Below, piece after piece: positions 5,052 through 16,326 of a stretch of DNA of 62,034 nucleotides. The notes under the pieces are model-generated. The model was not told the DNA's origin, made no database searches, and worked only from the letters and a program-made list of their open reading frames with translations. A program made the position numbers and the translations under genes. The stretch's first letter is position 1. Every line of letters starts with the position of its first letter. The DNA is from Synergistaceae bacterium (lineage in GTDB: Bacteria > Synergistota > Synergistia > Synergistales > Aminobacteriaceae): contig JAISUO010000032.1 in the NCBI GenBank assembly GCA_031272035.1, positions 1-62,034 of the forward strand, in the 5' to 3' direction.

Positions 5052-6392
5052 TTAAGAAGAGTTCAGGCGGGCGCGAATTTCTTCTTCGATAACGGCCCAG
5101 CTTCGTTCGGAGGCGCCTCCTACGGTCTCCAGCCAGGCGGCGCAGGCTTCTTTTGCCTTTTGCCGGGAGCCTTCTTCCAGAGAGGACAGCCAGGCCTCCG
5201 CCAACCCGTCGGCGTCGCGAATCTGCCGGGCCGCCCCCATGGCGTCCATCCGGTCGGCATCGCGAAAATCCCTCATGTCCGGACCGTGGACGGGCCGAAG
5301 GCCGAACAGCGCCGGTTCCATGAGGTTCTGCCCGCCTTTGGGGACGAGGCTGCCCCCCACGAAAGCCGCGTCCACCACCCCGTACATCTCGAACAGCACC
5401 CCTATTTTGTCCACCACAAGAATATCGCGAAACTCCGAATGCCCGGAAAGCAGACGAGCCTCTCCAAAAGCGGAGGCGAGCTGCGCCACGGACTGCCCTC
5501 TCTCGGGATGGCGGGGCGCGATGACCAGCCGGGCCCGGGGAAATTTTCGCCGCAGAATCTGAAAGGCCTTCAAAACCGCCTCCTCCTCTCCGGGATGGGT
5601 GCTGCCCGCAAGGAGCACAGGGGCGGACGCCTCCCCCCGAAGGAACGCCCATTTCGAAAGGTCCAGATTTTCCCTGCGCCGGATCATGGCGTCGATTTTG
5701 CAGTCTCCCGTGACGACAATTTTTTCCTCGGGGACCCCCAACCGCAGAAAATTTTCCCGATCCGAGTCGAAGCGCACCAGCAAACGGTTGAAACAAGAGA
5801 GGACGCCCCGCCAGAAACCCCGTGTTTTCAAGAGAGGGGCCGCGCTTTCGTCGGAAAGCCGTCCGTTGACGAGAAAAGCCGGAATGCCGCGCCGGTGAAG
5901 CTCGGAGAGCATGGTGGGCCACCGTTCCGTTTCCATGGCCACATAGGCCGCCGGGCAGAGCCGGTCCAAAGCGCGGCGGACGAAGCGCCGGGCGTCCCAG
6001 GGGCTGTAGATGAAGCGCTCCACCGCGTGAGACGTCAGTTTTTCCGCCATGACGCGCCCCGTTCGGGTCACGGTGGAGAGAACGCAGGGTCGGGAGCAGC
6101 TTTGACGGGCCGCCTCGATCAGCGAAAGGGCCGACTGCACCTCCCCCACGGAGACGGAATGCACCCACAGCGCGTTTCGGGGAACGCCGGAGTCGAAAAT
6201 CCCCATGCGCTCCTCGACGCCCGTTTTGTACTTTTTTTTCAGACGGCGCAGACCTCCCGCCGCGAAAAAGACGTCCACCGCCGTCTGGTAGAGCCCCAAG
6301 GCCAACCGGTAACTCCAGGCGTCCAGGGCCTCCCGGGTTCCGGAGTCCGTCCACCGGGCCGGAGCCGAATTTGCGGAAAATCGTTTATCCAC
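5052..6392 (-). CDS. waaA: 3-deoxy-D-manno-octulosonic acid (Kdo) transferase
   Basis: This GT-B glycosyltransferase transfers Kdo from CMP-Kdo to lipid A precursors at the inner membrane, so the organism makes lipopolysaccharide. Visible motifs are WVHSVSVGEV (acceptor-side Glu region), METERWPTML, a central linker, and GGQNLMEPALFG (family norm GGHNxxEPA, here with Gln for His) in the nucleotide lobe. An N-terminal hydrophobic stretch fits membrane anchoring. The start is uncertain. I prefer GTG 6392, which overlaps the stop of the upstream gene (translational coupling); a TTG at 6431 has no ribosome site. With the 6392 start the product is 446 residues, within the family range. Confidence 0.87.
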   Translation of the reverse strand: MDKRFSANSAPARWTDSGTREALDAWSYRLALGLYQTAVDVFFAAGGLRRLKKKYKTGVEERMGIFDSGVPRNALWVHSVSVGEVQSALSLIEAARQSCSRPCVLSTVTRTGRVMAEKLTSHAVERFIYSPWDARRFVRRALDRLCPAAYVAMETERWPTMLSELHRRGIPAFLVNGRLSDESAAPLLKTRGFWRGVLSCFNRLLVRFDSDRENFLRLGVPEEKIVVTGDCKIDAMIRRRENLDLSKWAFLRGEASAPVLLAGSTHPGEEEAVLKAFQILRRKFPRARLVIAPRHPERGQSVAQLASAFGEARLLSGHSEFRDILVVDKIGVLFEMYGVVDAAFVGGSLVPKGGQNLMEPALFGLRPVHGPDMRDFRDADRMDAMGAARQIRDADGLAEAWLSSLEEGSRQKAKEACAAWLETVGGASERSWAVIEEEIRARLNSS

Positions 6393-12268: not shown

Positions 12269-12366
12269 TGGCGGAGGTGTGTGGGGATCGAACCCACCAG
12301 AGACAGCGCAAACCGCCTCTCACCGGGTTTGAAGCCCGGGCCCGTCACCAGACGAATCTCACCTCC
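12269..12366 (-). tRNA. selC: tRNA-Sec (anticodon TCA)
   Basis: Read on the minus strand, the gene begins GGAGGTGAG and ends CACCTCCGCCA. It has the oversized layout of selenocysteine tRNA: 98 bases with encoded CCA, a long variable arm, and the anticodon loop CTTCAAA with TCA. The T-arm is GTGGG-TTCGATC-CCCAC. The D-region wording (TCTGGTGACGGG) matches known bacterial selC genes. It shows the cell inserts selenocysteine at UGA codons. No selA, selB or selD lies in this window. Discriminator base is G at 12272. Confidence 0.93.
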
Positions 12367-12967: not shown

Positions 12968-13240
12968 CTATAAACTGTAAATATCCGCGTGTGAGCCCGT
13001 CCGTGAAAGATACACAGACTCGTCGTCAATAGCGTAGATTAATATCCAATCCGTTTCTATGTGACAACTGCGGAATCCGATGAATCTTCCCCTGAGAGGA
13101 TGATCTTTTAAACCGGGCGGCAAACAACCCTCCATCGCGAGAGAAAAAATCACAATATCCAATTTGCCTATGTCTTTCCCCCGCTTTTGCATCAAATCGT
13201 ATTCATGTTTAAATTTTTTCGCCAGTTTAACGGTTCTCAT
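12968..13240 (-). CDS. YafQ/RelE-family mRNA interferase toxin
   Basis: The 90-residue protein is a RelE-superfamily ribosome-dependent mRNA endonuclease of the YafQ branch. The catalytic set is all present in the right order: His in KDHPL, His in SCHIETDW with the following Asp-Trp, and the C-terminal His in RTGSHADIY. Its antitoxin gene lies three bases upstream (13244-13402), the usual order. It is the first of three toxin-antitoxin modules within 3.4 kb. On free expression it should stop growth by cutting mRNA on the ribosome. Confidence 0.88.
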   Translation of the reverse strand: MRTVKLAKKFKHEYDLMQKRGKDIGKLDIVIFSLAMEGCLPPGLKDHPLRGRFIGFRSCHIETDWILIYAIDDESVYLSRTGSHADIYSL

Positions 13241-13243
13241 ATT

Positions 13244-13402
13244 TCAGCTTTTCAGGTATTTGAAGAGATCGTCAAGAGAAGTAAAAGTCACCCCACCCCC
13301 TTCGTTCAATTCACGACATGCTTTTAACGTTTCCTGGTTGGGAGTCTCTTCTTCTATGTCCGTCGTTGCGTTGTTGGCATTTTTAATTTTTGTTATTTCC
13401 AT
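13244..13402 (-). CDS. Antitoxin of the YafQ-type toxin, unusually short
   Basis: The 52-residue protein ends NQETLKACRELNEGGG followed by FTSLDDLFKYLKS. That matches the toxin-neutralising tail of RelB/DinJ antitoxins (NxETLxA...SxxDLFKxL). The ribbon-helix-helix DNA-binding half normally found before it is absent. I chose ATG 13402 because GGAGGCGACAGAA precedes it; a longer frame to 13438 adds 12 basic residues without an RHH pattern. It neighbours the toxin with three bases between. Either it is a genuine neutralisation-only antitoxin or a shortened one. Confidence 0.75.
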   Translation of the reverse strand: MEITKIKNANNATTDIEEETPNQETLKACRELNEGGGVTFTSLDDLFKYLKS

Positions 13403-13535
13403 TTTCTGTCGCCTCCATTCTTTTCTTCTGGATGACAATATCAGAAAGAAAATCGCTTCTGAGAGGAATATCCTGCTCTAATGTCGCCGGCTCCGATACT
13501 GGCCTGGCTTCGCGAGCTGTCTCCAGAACAAGAAA

Positions 13536-13659: not shown

Positions 13660-14004
13660 TTAACTGCTCAGTTTATAGAGCGCATACTGATTCAGCGAAA
13701 CTCCTTCCCGTTCCGCTTCGAGGGCAAGTTTCGCGTGAAGCGTTTTAGGAAGTCTCAGGACAAATTTACCGCTGAATTTCTTTTCATCGGCGGGGACAGG
13801 AACAGAAAAACCGGCTTCCAGCCTCATTTCAATCCAGAGTTCCATCGCTTCGCGAATTCTGGAGGCAGCTTCCTCCGCAGTGGCTCCGTGACTCATGCAT
13901 CCGTCCAATTCTTTGACTGTGGCGAAATAATATTCGCCGCTTTCGTCGTTCATGTGCCTGATAATCACGCTATAGGGCAGTTTCATATACTCCGATATAT
14001 CCAT
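13660..14004 (-). CDS. hicB: HicB antitoxin
   Basis: The 114-residue protein has the two-part HicB layout. The N-terminal domain is a partial RNase H fold (YSVIIRHMND, YYFATVKELDGCMSHGATAEEA) that caps the HicA toxin. The C-terminal part (KFVLRLPKTLHAKLALEAEREGVS) is a ribbon-helix-helix DNA-binding domain, so it should repress its own promoter. It lies 15 bases downstream of hicA, the common hicA-hicB order. Confidence 0.9.
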   Translation of the reverse strand: MDISEYMKLPYSVIIRHMNDESGEYYFATVKELDGCMSHGATAEEAASRIREAMELWIEMRLEAGFSVPVPADEKKFSGKFVLRLPKTLHAKLALEAEREGVSLNQYALYKLSS

Positions 14005-14019
14005 CGTTTTATCCTCTCC

Positions 14020-14247
14020 CTATTTTTCGCCAATCAGCGTCAAAATATCTTCAATATACGCTTTTGGAACGGGGGATCCATATACCAACGTGATAAAATT
14101 GCCCGCAGCGTTGGCATAACCCCGATGTGAACCTTTCTGACGTTTAAAGACATAACCATTCTTTTCAAGAACTTTTTCAGCTTCGCTGAAGCGAATGCCG
14201 TTAGGCTGAGTTTTCATTTTTTGGATAATCTTTTTAATATCTGGCAT
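14020..14247 (-). CDS. hicA: HicA mRNA interferase toxin
   Basis: The 75-residue double-stranded-RNA-binding-like toxin has the key histidine in RQKGSHRGY and the typical start IRFSEAEKVLEKNGYVFKR. HicA toxins cleave mRNA independently of the ribosome and are blocked by HicB, encoded just downstream. The proposed ATG 14247 follows GAAGGGGAGCG; the open frame extends upstream to 14379 through sequence that belongs to another element. A TATAAT on the minus strand lies about 20 bases before the start codon. Confidence 0.88.
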   Translation of the reverse strand: MPDIKKIIQKMKTQPNGIRFSEAEKVLEKNGYVFKRQKGSHRGYANAAGNFITLVYGSPVPKAYIEDILTLIGEK

Positions 14248-14315
14248 TTCGCTCCCCTTCGTGATTATTATAATACTAAATTCAGTACCATATAAAAAGA
14301 GGGATCTGTCTGGGG

Positions 14316-14513
14316 CATCCCCCCGAAAGGGGGTGATAGCGTGGAAGAAAAAATAAAACCAGCAATAGCTGTCCTTCAACTATTGCCAGCCATCGCCGAA
14401 CTGATCCGGCTCATCAAAGCGCTCTAACCTTCGCCTGGGTGTAAGTCCTGGTGAGGGTGGAGACCCCTCATCGGGCAGCCTGTAACCACCCGTATGACCT
14501 CTCCCATACGGGT
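14316..14513 (+). ncRNA. Candidate structured RNA element with four hairpins
   Basis: Four stems occur in 200 bases: CCCCC-GAAA-GGGGG (14320-14333), GCAATAG/CTATTGC (14362-14368/14380-14386), TGAGGG/CCCTCA (14452-14457/14465-14470) and ACCCGTATG/CATACGGGT (14488-14496/14505-14513). The first ties up a ribosome-binding site for a small reading frame at 14341. The last is terminator-shaped but lacks a T-run. It resembles no RNA family I know. It could be a regulated mRNA for a toxic peptide, a mobile-element remnant or a non-coding RNA. Confidence 0.4.
14341..14427 (+). CDS. Possible 28-residue amphipathic peptide
   Basis: The frame starts at GTG after AAAGGGGGTGATAGC and encodes a peptide with a short charged start (MEEKIKP) and a hydrophobic or amphipathic rest (AIAVLQLLPAIAELIRLIKAL). 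It ends in TAA. The ribosome site is the 3' arm of a five-pair GAAA-loop hairpin, so translation may be gated. Size, composition and placement between toxin-antitoxin modules are like type I toxins or holin-like toxins, but I recognise no family. The frame could be chance within a structured RNA. Confidence 0.4.
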   Translation: MEEKIKPAIAVLQLLPAIAELIRLIKAL

Positions 14514-14587
14514 ATTATACCATCCAGATCTTGCGACGTGACGTCCCGAAATTTTCTGAGGAATGACATAAAACTCGGCGTCTGACT

Positions 14588-15298: not shown

Positions 15299-15483
15299 CG
15301 CGTGTCACTCCAAACATTGAAGTTTGAGCTGCCGGAAAGTCAGGGAGACGTTTGATGAAAATTGTAGTTAAATATTAAGCAAAAATCTACGGCAAAATAC
15401 ACGAGCCGCGGAACGCGCAGGTGGGACGCCTTCTTGACTTGTATCGCTGCTGTCACTACAATTATTCAAAGGAGGTGACTGTC

Positions 15484-15807
15484 ATGCCGAAAGCGGCGAA
15501 AACAGCTTTGAATGTGAAACAACAGACGGGTACAGCCGGAACCAGGGTTTTTTTCCAGGGGCGCGTCCCCCTTGAGGTCAAACGTCGCTGGCAGACGGCC
15601 GCCAGTCTGCGCGGACAGTCCCTGACGGATTTTTTAATCGTGGCCGCCAATAACGCCGCTGACAATGTGTTCGAGACCGAAGAACATATCTCTCTTTCTT
15701 TGCGCGGACAGCAGGAACTCGTCGAAATGCTGTCGCGCCCGCCACGCCCAAACGAACGGCTTCACAAGGCCGTTCAGGAAGAATTGGCCGCCATGCGAAA
15801 GTATTGA
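15484..15807 (+). CDS. TacA-type antitoxin (DUF1778)
   Basis: The 107-residue protein contains a ribbon-helix-helix region (RVFFQGRVPLEVKRRWQTAA, then LRGQSLTDFLIVAANNAA) and a C-terminal toxin-binding tail (LSLRGQQELVEMLSRPP, PNERLHKAVQE). This is the DUF1778/TacA pattern. ATG 15484 follows AAAGGAGGTGACTGTC. The stop is four bases before the acetyltransferase toxin. It should bind the operator and neutralise the toxin. Confidence 0.88.
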   Translation: MPKAAKTALNVKQQTGTAGTRVFFQGRVPLEVKRRWQTAASLRGQSLTDFLIVAANNAADNVFETEEHISLSLRGQQELVEMLSRPPRPNERLHKAVQEELAAMRKY

Positions 15808-15810
15808 ACA

Positions 15811-16326
15811 GTGCTGAAAATCATTCCATTCGATAAAACGTGCATCAGGAAAGGCTTCAACTGCGGAAAGGCGGAACTTGACGAATACCTTTTAAAATAC
15901 GCGGGGCAGGATATACGCCGCAACCTCGCCGCGCTGTTTGTGGCCGCAGACGACGAGGACAGGCGCATTGCAGGTTACTATACATTATCTAACGCCGGCA
16001 TCGTCGCCTCAATTCTCCCTTCGGCCTTTCAAAAAGAGCTGGGAAAATACGGCGATGTTCCCGCTATACGACTGGGACGGCTCGCGGTCGACAGGCGCTT
16101 TCAAAAGCGCGGACTGGGCGAACGGCTGCTCGCCAACGCCGTTATCAGGAGCGTGTCAAACTCCTCCGCCTGGGCAGTAATGGTCGTGGACGCGAAAGAT
16201 GCCGCCGCCGCGGCGTTTTATCGCAAGTTTGGGTTTACTTCTCTGAAAGACGACATGTTGCATTTGTTCGCGCCCAGAACGGATTTATACCATTGTCTGA
16301 CGGCAGGCGCGCGGGCGGGACGTTGA
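15811..16326 (+). CDS. TacT-type GNAT acetyltransferase toxin
   Basis: The 171-residue protein is a GNAT enzyme of the kind that acetylates aminoacyl-tRNA to block translation. Visible parts are the N-terminal FDKTCIRKGFNCGKAELDEYLL (typical of TacT/AtaT toxins), the acetyl-CoA loop RLAVDRRFQKRGLGERLL, and the active-site-side Tyr in AAAFYRKFGF. It starts with GTG at 15811, directly after the antitoxin stop, so the pair is translationally coupled. Target tRNA cannot be predicted from sequence. Confidence 0.87.
   Translation: MLKIIPFDKTCIRKGFNCGKAELDEYLLKYAGQDIRRNLAALFVAADDEDRRIAGYYTLSNAGIVASILPSAFQKELGKYGDVPAIRLGRLAVDRRFQKRGLGERLLANAVIRSVSNSSAWAVMVVDAKDAAAAAFYRKFGFTSLKDDMLHLFAPRTDLYHCLTAGARAGR

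Follow-up and report, generated by a model that had tools for sequence, protein, structure and literature searches.

The window analysed here, a stretch of 62,034 nucleotides from a Synergistaceae bacterium, contains a compact structured element flanked by several small loci of known type. On one side lie a selenocysteine tRNA gene (12269-12366, minus strand) and two type II toxin-antitoxin-like loci, one encoding YafQ with a weak RelB-like partner (12968-13438) and the other HicAB (13660-14250), and on the other side follows a TacA-like protein together with a GNAT acetyltransferase (TacAT, 15466-16323), again a type II toxin-antitoxin-like locus. A first-pass annotation had noted four hairpins at 14316-14513, and five have now been located by coordinates; including both promoters, the unit is somewhat larger and consists of the following features:

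About 14269-14522: entire unit including both promoters
14269-14274, plus strand: candidate sense -10 box TATAAT, read from the sequence; its spacing to the 5' end differs from that in other copies
14298-14302, plus strand: AGAGG, leftover of the 5'-end half of a 5'-3' interaction, as judged by comparison with relatives (mostly GGAGAGG)
14306-14310, plus strand: CTGTC, 5' side of the closing stem, with its partner GGCAG at 14474-14478 (covariation helix 1)
14319-14337, plus strand: hairpin CCCCC-GAAA-GGGGG over the Shine-Dalgarno (SD) sequence GGGGGTGAT, with all five pairs compensated in a 72-copy alignment
14341-14427, plus strand: open reading frame (ORF) with GTG start and 28 codons for a 28-aa peptide, MEEKIKPAIAVLQLLPAIAELIRLIKAL
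14360-14389, no strand assigned: hairpin P4 within the ORF, backed by covariation; together with the preceding A-rich codons it may act as terminator on the minus strand
14391-14357, minus strand: terminator-like site of the predicted antisense RNA
14395-14410, plus strand: hairpin P5 within the ORF, GCCGAACTGATCCGGC (GCCGAAC..CCGGC), read from the sequence and kept in most copies
14437-14478, plus strand: 3' UTR stems P7 (GGGTGTAAGTCC) and P8 (TGGTGAGG..CCTCATCGG) with the 3' side of the closing stem, all with strong covariation
14489-14512, plus strand: terminal hairpin P9 with arms CCCGTATG..CATACGGG, at the position of the sense terminator
14497-14504, plus strand: P9 loop ACCUCUCC, in relatives the partner of the mRNA 5' end
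14513-14522, minus strand: antisense extended -10 box, reading TGGTATAATA on that strand; a perfect 8/8 match here and sharply placed in relatives
14345-14507, minus strand: predicted antisense (antitoxin) RNA of about 160 nt, from promoter and terminator prediction

This block is one copy of a dispersed and previously undescribed gene family in Synergistota. An initial BLAST search found it repeated across the Synergistota family to which the window belongs, with up to eight matches per genome, some of them in tandem. Using a covariance model of the 180-nt core, which was built from an alignment of 20 copies, we obtained matches in 47 of 83 family genomes (E <= 0.001) and in 49 of 188 genomes of the phylum (E <= 1e-5), nearly all of the latter within the same family. 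In total, 162 copies were recovered from about 120 loci. The copy number per genome ranges from 0 to 14, and head-to-tail arrays are common, with up to six copies in G117:C99; the host genome of the window has one full copy. Named matches comprise Fretibacterium fastidiosum (NC_021038), one Fretibacterium MAG, Synergistaceae MAGs and Synergistales records, several of the matched records being derived from animal samples. Pattern scans outside the phylum revealed that the SD motif by itself is frequent before unrelated clostridial genes; the covariance model, among the matches listed, confirms with confidence only those from Synergistota. The listed matches of a peptide-based search fall at or close to elements.

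The impression of the first-pass annotation that no family matches was borne out by every collection consulted. In Rfam, searched at the gathering score and up to E 5, only subthreshold, chance-level matches to the element appeared, and neither Pfam, NCBIfam, PHROGs nor PADLOC contains a family matching the peptide. A PDB sequence search with the peptide returned nothing significant, its weak matches being designed helical proteins, and phage and plasmid collections gave no real match to the element. These sequence searches of Pfam, NCBIfam, PHROGs, PADLOC and PDB indicate no homology of the peptide to known toxins. Besides the family itself, some separate loci deserve mention. A weak relative in another family of the order (L360, 4035-4225) has a direct end pairing of 13 bp, ATGCGCGGCTCCG/CGGAGCCGCGCAT, and encodes a very basic peptide of 28 aa. 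Two viral contigs (L207 at 5060-5275 and L230 near 1887-1998) follow a comparable plan, although in sequence they have no clear relation to the element: TATAAC, a 5' end with AGGAGC, a long closing stem GGCGGTTGGTCA/TGACCAACCGCC, an SD hairpin, a 23-aa peptide MEYLTIFAVILVLLVCLFKKNAK, GCTCCT and then TATTATACCC. These viral elements are a candidate second type I toxin-like family.

The RNA structure is supported by covariation. In the alignment of 20 sequences, made without reference to the structure, pairing holds in 94.9% of cells over 37 core pairs, and 16 of these pairs display double changes; none of 500 shuffles matched the observed covariation, which was also destroyed when partners were shifted by one to three columns. 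In 72 copies, double changes are found in 36 of 37 pairs, including all five of the SD hairpin, in an alignment that leans to the model. The stems are conserved with compensatory changes among the 162 copies. Folding energies point in the same direction, as the window block lies below its shuffles (z -2.6) and a full-length relative more so (z -4.0). The predicted burial of the SD, however, exceeds that of shuffles only to a modest extent (mean unpaired 0.154 vs 0.231), which counts against a strong block of translation. Since this predicted accessibility is so little lower, we place no weight on energy alone.

The reading frame is conserved as well. Requiring an SD at a distance of 4-10 nt, an ATG or GTG start and 18-48 codons, we found an intact frame in 120 of the 162 copies, encoding 117 distinct peptides with the consensus MERIIKLVKALTELIRALAELIRLFKA; the remaining ones include truncated and frameshifted copies as well as some interrupted by a contig end. 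Almost every intact copy combines an SD spacing of 5-8 nt with a GTG or ATG start, and nearly all peptides align gapless over 21 residues, IKLVKALTELIRALAELIRLF. Differences at codon positions 1, 2 and 3 amount to 0.39, 0.21 and 0.55, and near pairs give a pN/pS of 0.40 and all pairs one of 0.50, in comparison to 0.80 and 1.80 in the shifted frames. N-terminal length variation also occurs in whole codons, and these patterns together indicate that the frame is translated, or has been. Some peptides (L287, L319) contain an extra heptad. As both the stems and the codon-selected frame are kept, the outcome is the opposite of what the first-pass annotation had named as evidence against itself, namely homologues that keep neither, and its proposal of an unknown type I toxin mRNA gains support.

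The typical peptide has 27 residues and is predicted to form a hydrophobic, membrane-type helix. Charges alternate in the order + + - + - + at core positions 2, 5, 9, 12, 16 and 19, a 3/4 spacing that places them on one helix face, and the Eisenberg helical moment is 0.57, compared with 0.24 after shuffling of the residues. The element therefore contains a gene under selection for a small hydrophobic peptide (<60 aa), as looked for in type I toxin-antitoxin systems. The amphipathic helix and a net charge of mostly +1 to +5 would also suit a dual-function RNA encoding a non-toxic small protein or a secreted, leaderless bacteriocin-like antimicrobial. However, no transporter or immunity gene recurs beside the copies (judged by eye), and both the intricate fold of the mRNA and the signals for an opposing RNA described below better fit the silencing of a product harmful to its own cell; we regard such a function as unlikely. 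In some array copies (L329, 4595-4817; L330, 3736-3948 and 4411-4617), the same RNA scaffold carries an unrelated peptide of the MKDFLDGMIKLLQIISISATALEIILRIVRWWLAH type.

A further conserved property links the two ends of the RNA. Most full copies start near GGAGAGG and finish in a hairpin with the loop ACCUCUCC or a variant of it, and the 5' end and the terminal loop covary: besides GGAGAGG/CCUCUCC, more than ten other pairings occur, among them the compensated variants GGACAGG/CCUGUCC, GGGUAGG/CCUAUCC, GGCGAGG/CCUCGCC, GGGAAGC/GCUUCCC, GAAGAGG/CCUCUUC and GGCAAGG/CCUUGCC. For 67 noncanonical loops, the pairing score was 6.14, compared with 4.97 +/- 0.14 when loops were permuted among copies. 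Loop codes can differ even within one array (L303). The window copy itself has kept the core, the frame and the perfect antisense -10 box, but has lost most of the GGAGAGG end and lacks the 5' hairpin P1 that most relatives carry. In its peptide, moreover, residues 7 and 16 are prolines; most relatives carry Leu at the first of these positions and Arg or Leu at the second. Due to the missing P1 and the two prolines in the helix, this copy may be partly degenerate and weakened or inactive.

Two opposed promoter signals bound the element. On the sense strand, 52 of 143 copies carry the extended -10 sequence TGNTANAAT within a single 20-nt bin that lies 41-60 nt upstream of the core. For the antisense promoter, the perfect sequence TGNTATAAT occurs on its strand 53 times in 143 copies at 20-60 nt beyond the core, compared with no occurrence on the sense strand there; overall, the antisense -10 box is perfect in 61 of 150 copies, so that more than half of the sites are imperfect. 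A -35 box showed no enrichment over shuffles for either promoter. Both predicted transcripts have a matching terminator-like site: the terminal hairpin with a U-run on the sense strand (70 of 118 copies vs 6 shuffled) and, on the antisense strand, the ORF hairpin P4 with the complement of the initial, A-rich codons behind it (65 of 118 vs 6 shuffled). The predicted antisense RNA has a length of 168 nt (IQR 163-173) and would leave the SD uncovered, which, like the imperfect -10 sites, counts against a role as antitoxin. P4 is nearly devoid of G-U pairs (20 of 573 paired cells vs 256 of 1600 in the other helices; sums from the 72-copy alignment), a pattern to be expected of a hairpin that has to form on the antisense strand too. 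Isoleucine is encoded by ATA in 154 of 183 cases before P4, in comparison to 76 of 290 elsewhere in the ORF or after P4. The scarcity of G-U pairs and the ATA bias are two independent signs that support a constraint from the antisense strand.

The genomic surroundings bear on several other readings. The toxin-antitoxin neighbours to which the first-pass annotation pointed are real on both sides (YafQ/RelB-like, HicAB and TacA/GNAT), but the link appears to be incidental, because most relatives checked adjoin ordinary chromosomal genes (named by eye). In several species (L304, L306, L310, L322, L349), arrays adjoin a PTS transporter gene, and in L304 and L349 a flagellin gene lies on the other side; the copy number beside the PTS gene varies, with four in L304 and two in L306. 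A short ORF with an SD and alternative hairpins is also reminiscent of an attenuator, in which the ORF would specify a leader peptide controlling the downstream gene. Yet a terminator-like site closes the unit, and the amino acids of the peptide are conserved beyond the codons alone. Among 27 loci, the downstream gene shares the strand of the element in 14 and has the opposite orientation in 13, and no gene family recurs at this position; this absence of any strand or gene preference refutes the leader reading in part and leaves it extremely improbable.

Another reading concerns mobility, which the first-pass annotation had offered as an alternative in the form of a mobile-element RNA. Between unlinked paralogues within a genome, the sense and antisense -10 boxes delimit the similar stretch, with unrelated flanks in most pairs, so that mobility and a type I toxin mRNA are not mutually exclusive. 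In the strict form of this alternative, the element would be a self-spreading, MITE-like cassette with an RNA and a peptide that act in its propagation instead of having a toxin-antitoxin function. Besides the exact promoter-to-promoter likeness, the copy number of 0-14, the tandem arrays and the many copies located at contig ends would fit. On the other hand, no terminal inverted or direct repeats were reported in the window, no target duplications are obvious by eye where the similarity of paralogues ends, and no transposase gene was noticed among the listed neighbours. In addition, the position of the array beside the same PTS transporter and flagellin genes in several species points to vertical keeping, and the translation signals are conserved and the codons selected. 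We therefore judge a purely self-serving repeat to be quite unlikely.

In our opinion, the element probably represents a new type I toxin-antitoxin-like gene family with a control in the style of hok and aapA, predicted transcripts and a putative toxic product. The conserved stems and frame, the covariation between the two RNA ends, the pair of opposed promoters and a terminator on each strand were all shown computationally, and the unit of two RNAs and one peptide has the anatomy of a type I system outside all families tested, from which we infer its function. According to this model, the sense promoter with its extended -10 box would give rise to an mRNA of about 240 nt that starts at AGGAGAGG and stops at the terminal hairpin. 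With the SD enclosed in a hairpin and the 5' end paired to the 3' terminal loop, this mRNA would be stable and silent. The opposing promoter at the far end would produce an antisense RNA of about 168 nt terminating inside the ORF at P4, which could pair with the ORF and the 3' UTR and lead to removal of the mRNA, by analogy via RNase III. Exhaustion of the antisense RNA or trimming at the 3' end would open the mRNA and allow synthesis of the 27-residue helix, which may insert into the inner membrane and dissipate the proton-motive force, as proposed here in analogy to TisB.

A more far-reaching idea is that the scaffold serves as a silencing cassette of general use, which can be copied with its two convergent promoters as boundaries, can carry different membrane peptides and avoids cross-reaction within arrays by a copy-specific code of 5' end and 3' loop. 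The MKDFLDGMIKLLQIISISATALEIILRIVRWWLAH-type peptides in L329 and L330, the loop codes in L303 and the promoter-to-promoter similarity hint at this possibility, which we consider tentative and on balance rather doubtful. Irrespective of this, the 162 copies and 117 peptides are a natural data set on the mutual constraints of 5'-3' pairing, SD hairpins and overlapping antisense terminators, and the 5'-end/loop code directly predicts specificity between paralogues in arrays. The presence in the oral species Fretibacterium fastidiosum, which carries full copies, makes the family testable. The papers searched contained no description of a type I toxin-antitoxin family from Synergistota, and the family presented here is named in none of the libraries consulted.

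Among known systems, bsrG/SR4 and txpA/RatA of Bacillus have a convergent antisense RNA over the 3' part of the toxin mRNA and an SD within a hairpin. The element shares the SD hairpin and has a predicted convergent antisense RNA that would likewise overlap the 3' part, but its match to the Rfam BsrG model reaches no more than 13.5 bits, below the cut-off of 55 (E 0.58), and its peptide is without a Pfam match. Searched up to E 1, Pfam, in which a TisB model is expected, gave no family for the peptide. In TisB, charges alternate along a narrow strip, and the peptide is believed to assemble into antiparallel dimers and small pores (PMC8309996). A short hydrophobic helix with such a strip and a structured 5' UTR (PMC8309996) are common to tisB/IstR-1 and the element, which is a likeness of design and not homology; a difference is that IstR-1 acts at a 5' standby site. 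The hok mRNA adopts an inert fold, and Sok binds the mok initiation region (PMC8309996). Similar to hok/Sok, whose mRNA is inert until 3' processing, the element combines pairing of the 5' and 3' ends, a small membrane peptide and a predicted antisense RNA; however, its peptide has 27 instead of about 50 aa, its antisense RNA is predicted to overlap the 3' half, unlike Sok, and no hok or Sok RNA model in Rfam matched at the gathering score or up to E 5. In the aapA mRNAs of Helicobacter pylori, a long-distance 5'-3' interaction is described as well (PMC6733600). For aapA/IsoA, a comparison at the level of databases gave no matching family in Rfam, Pfam or NCBIfam, and in the element it is the loop of the terminal hairpin with which the 5' end pairs. 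Nevertheless, both are multi-copy chromosomal families with a small toxin, putative in the case of the element, SD-masking hairpins and a long-distance 5'-3' interaction (PMC6733600), and the element, for which we do not claim homology, would work alike.
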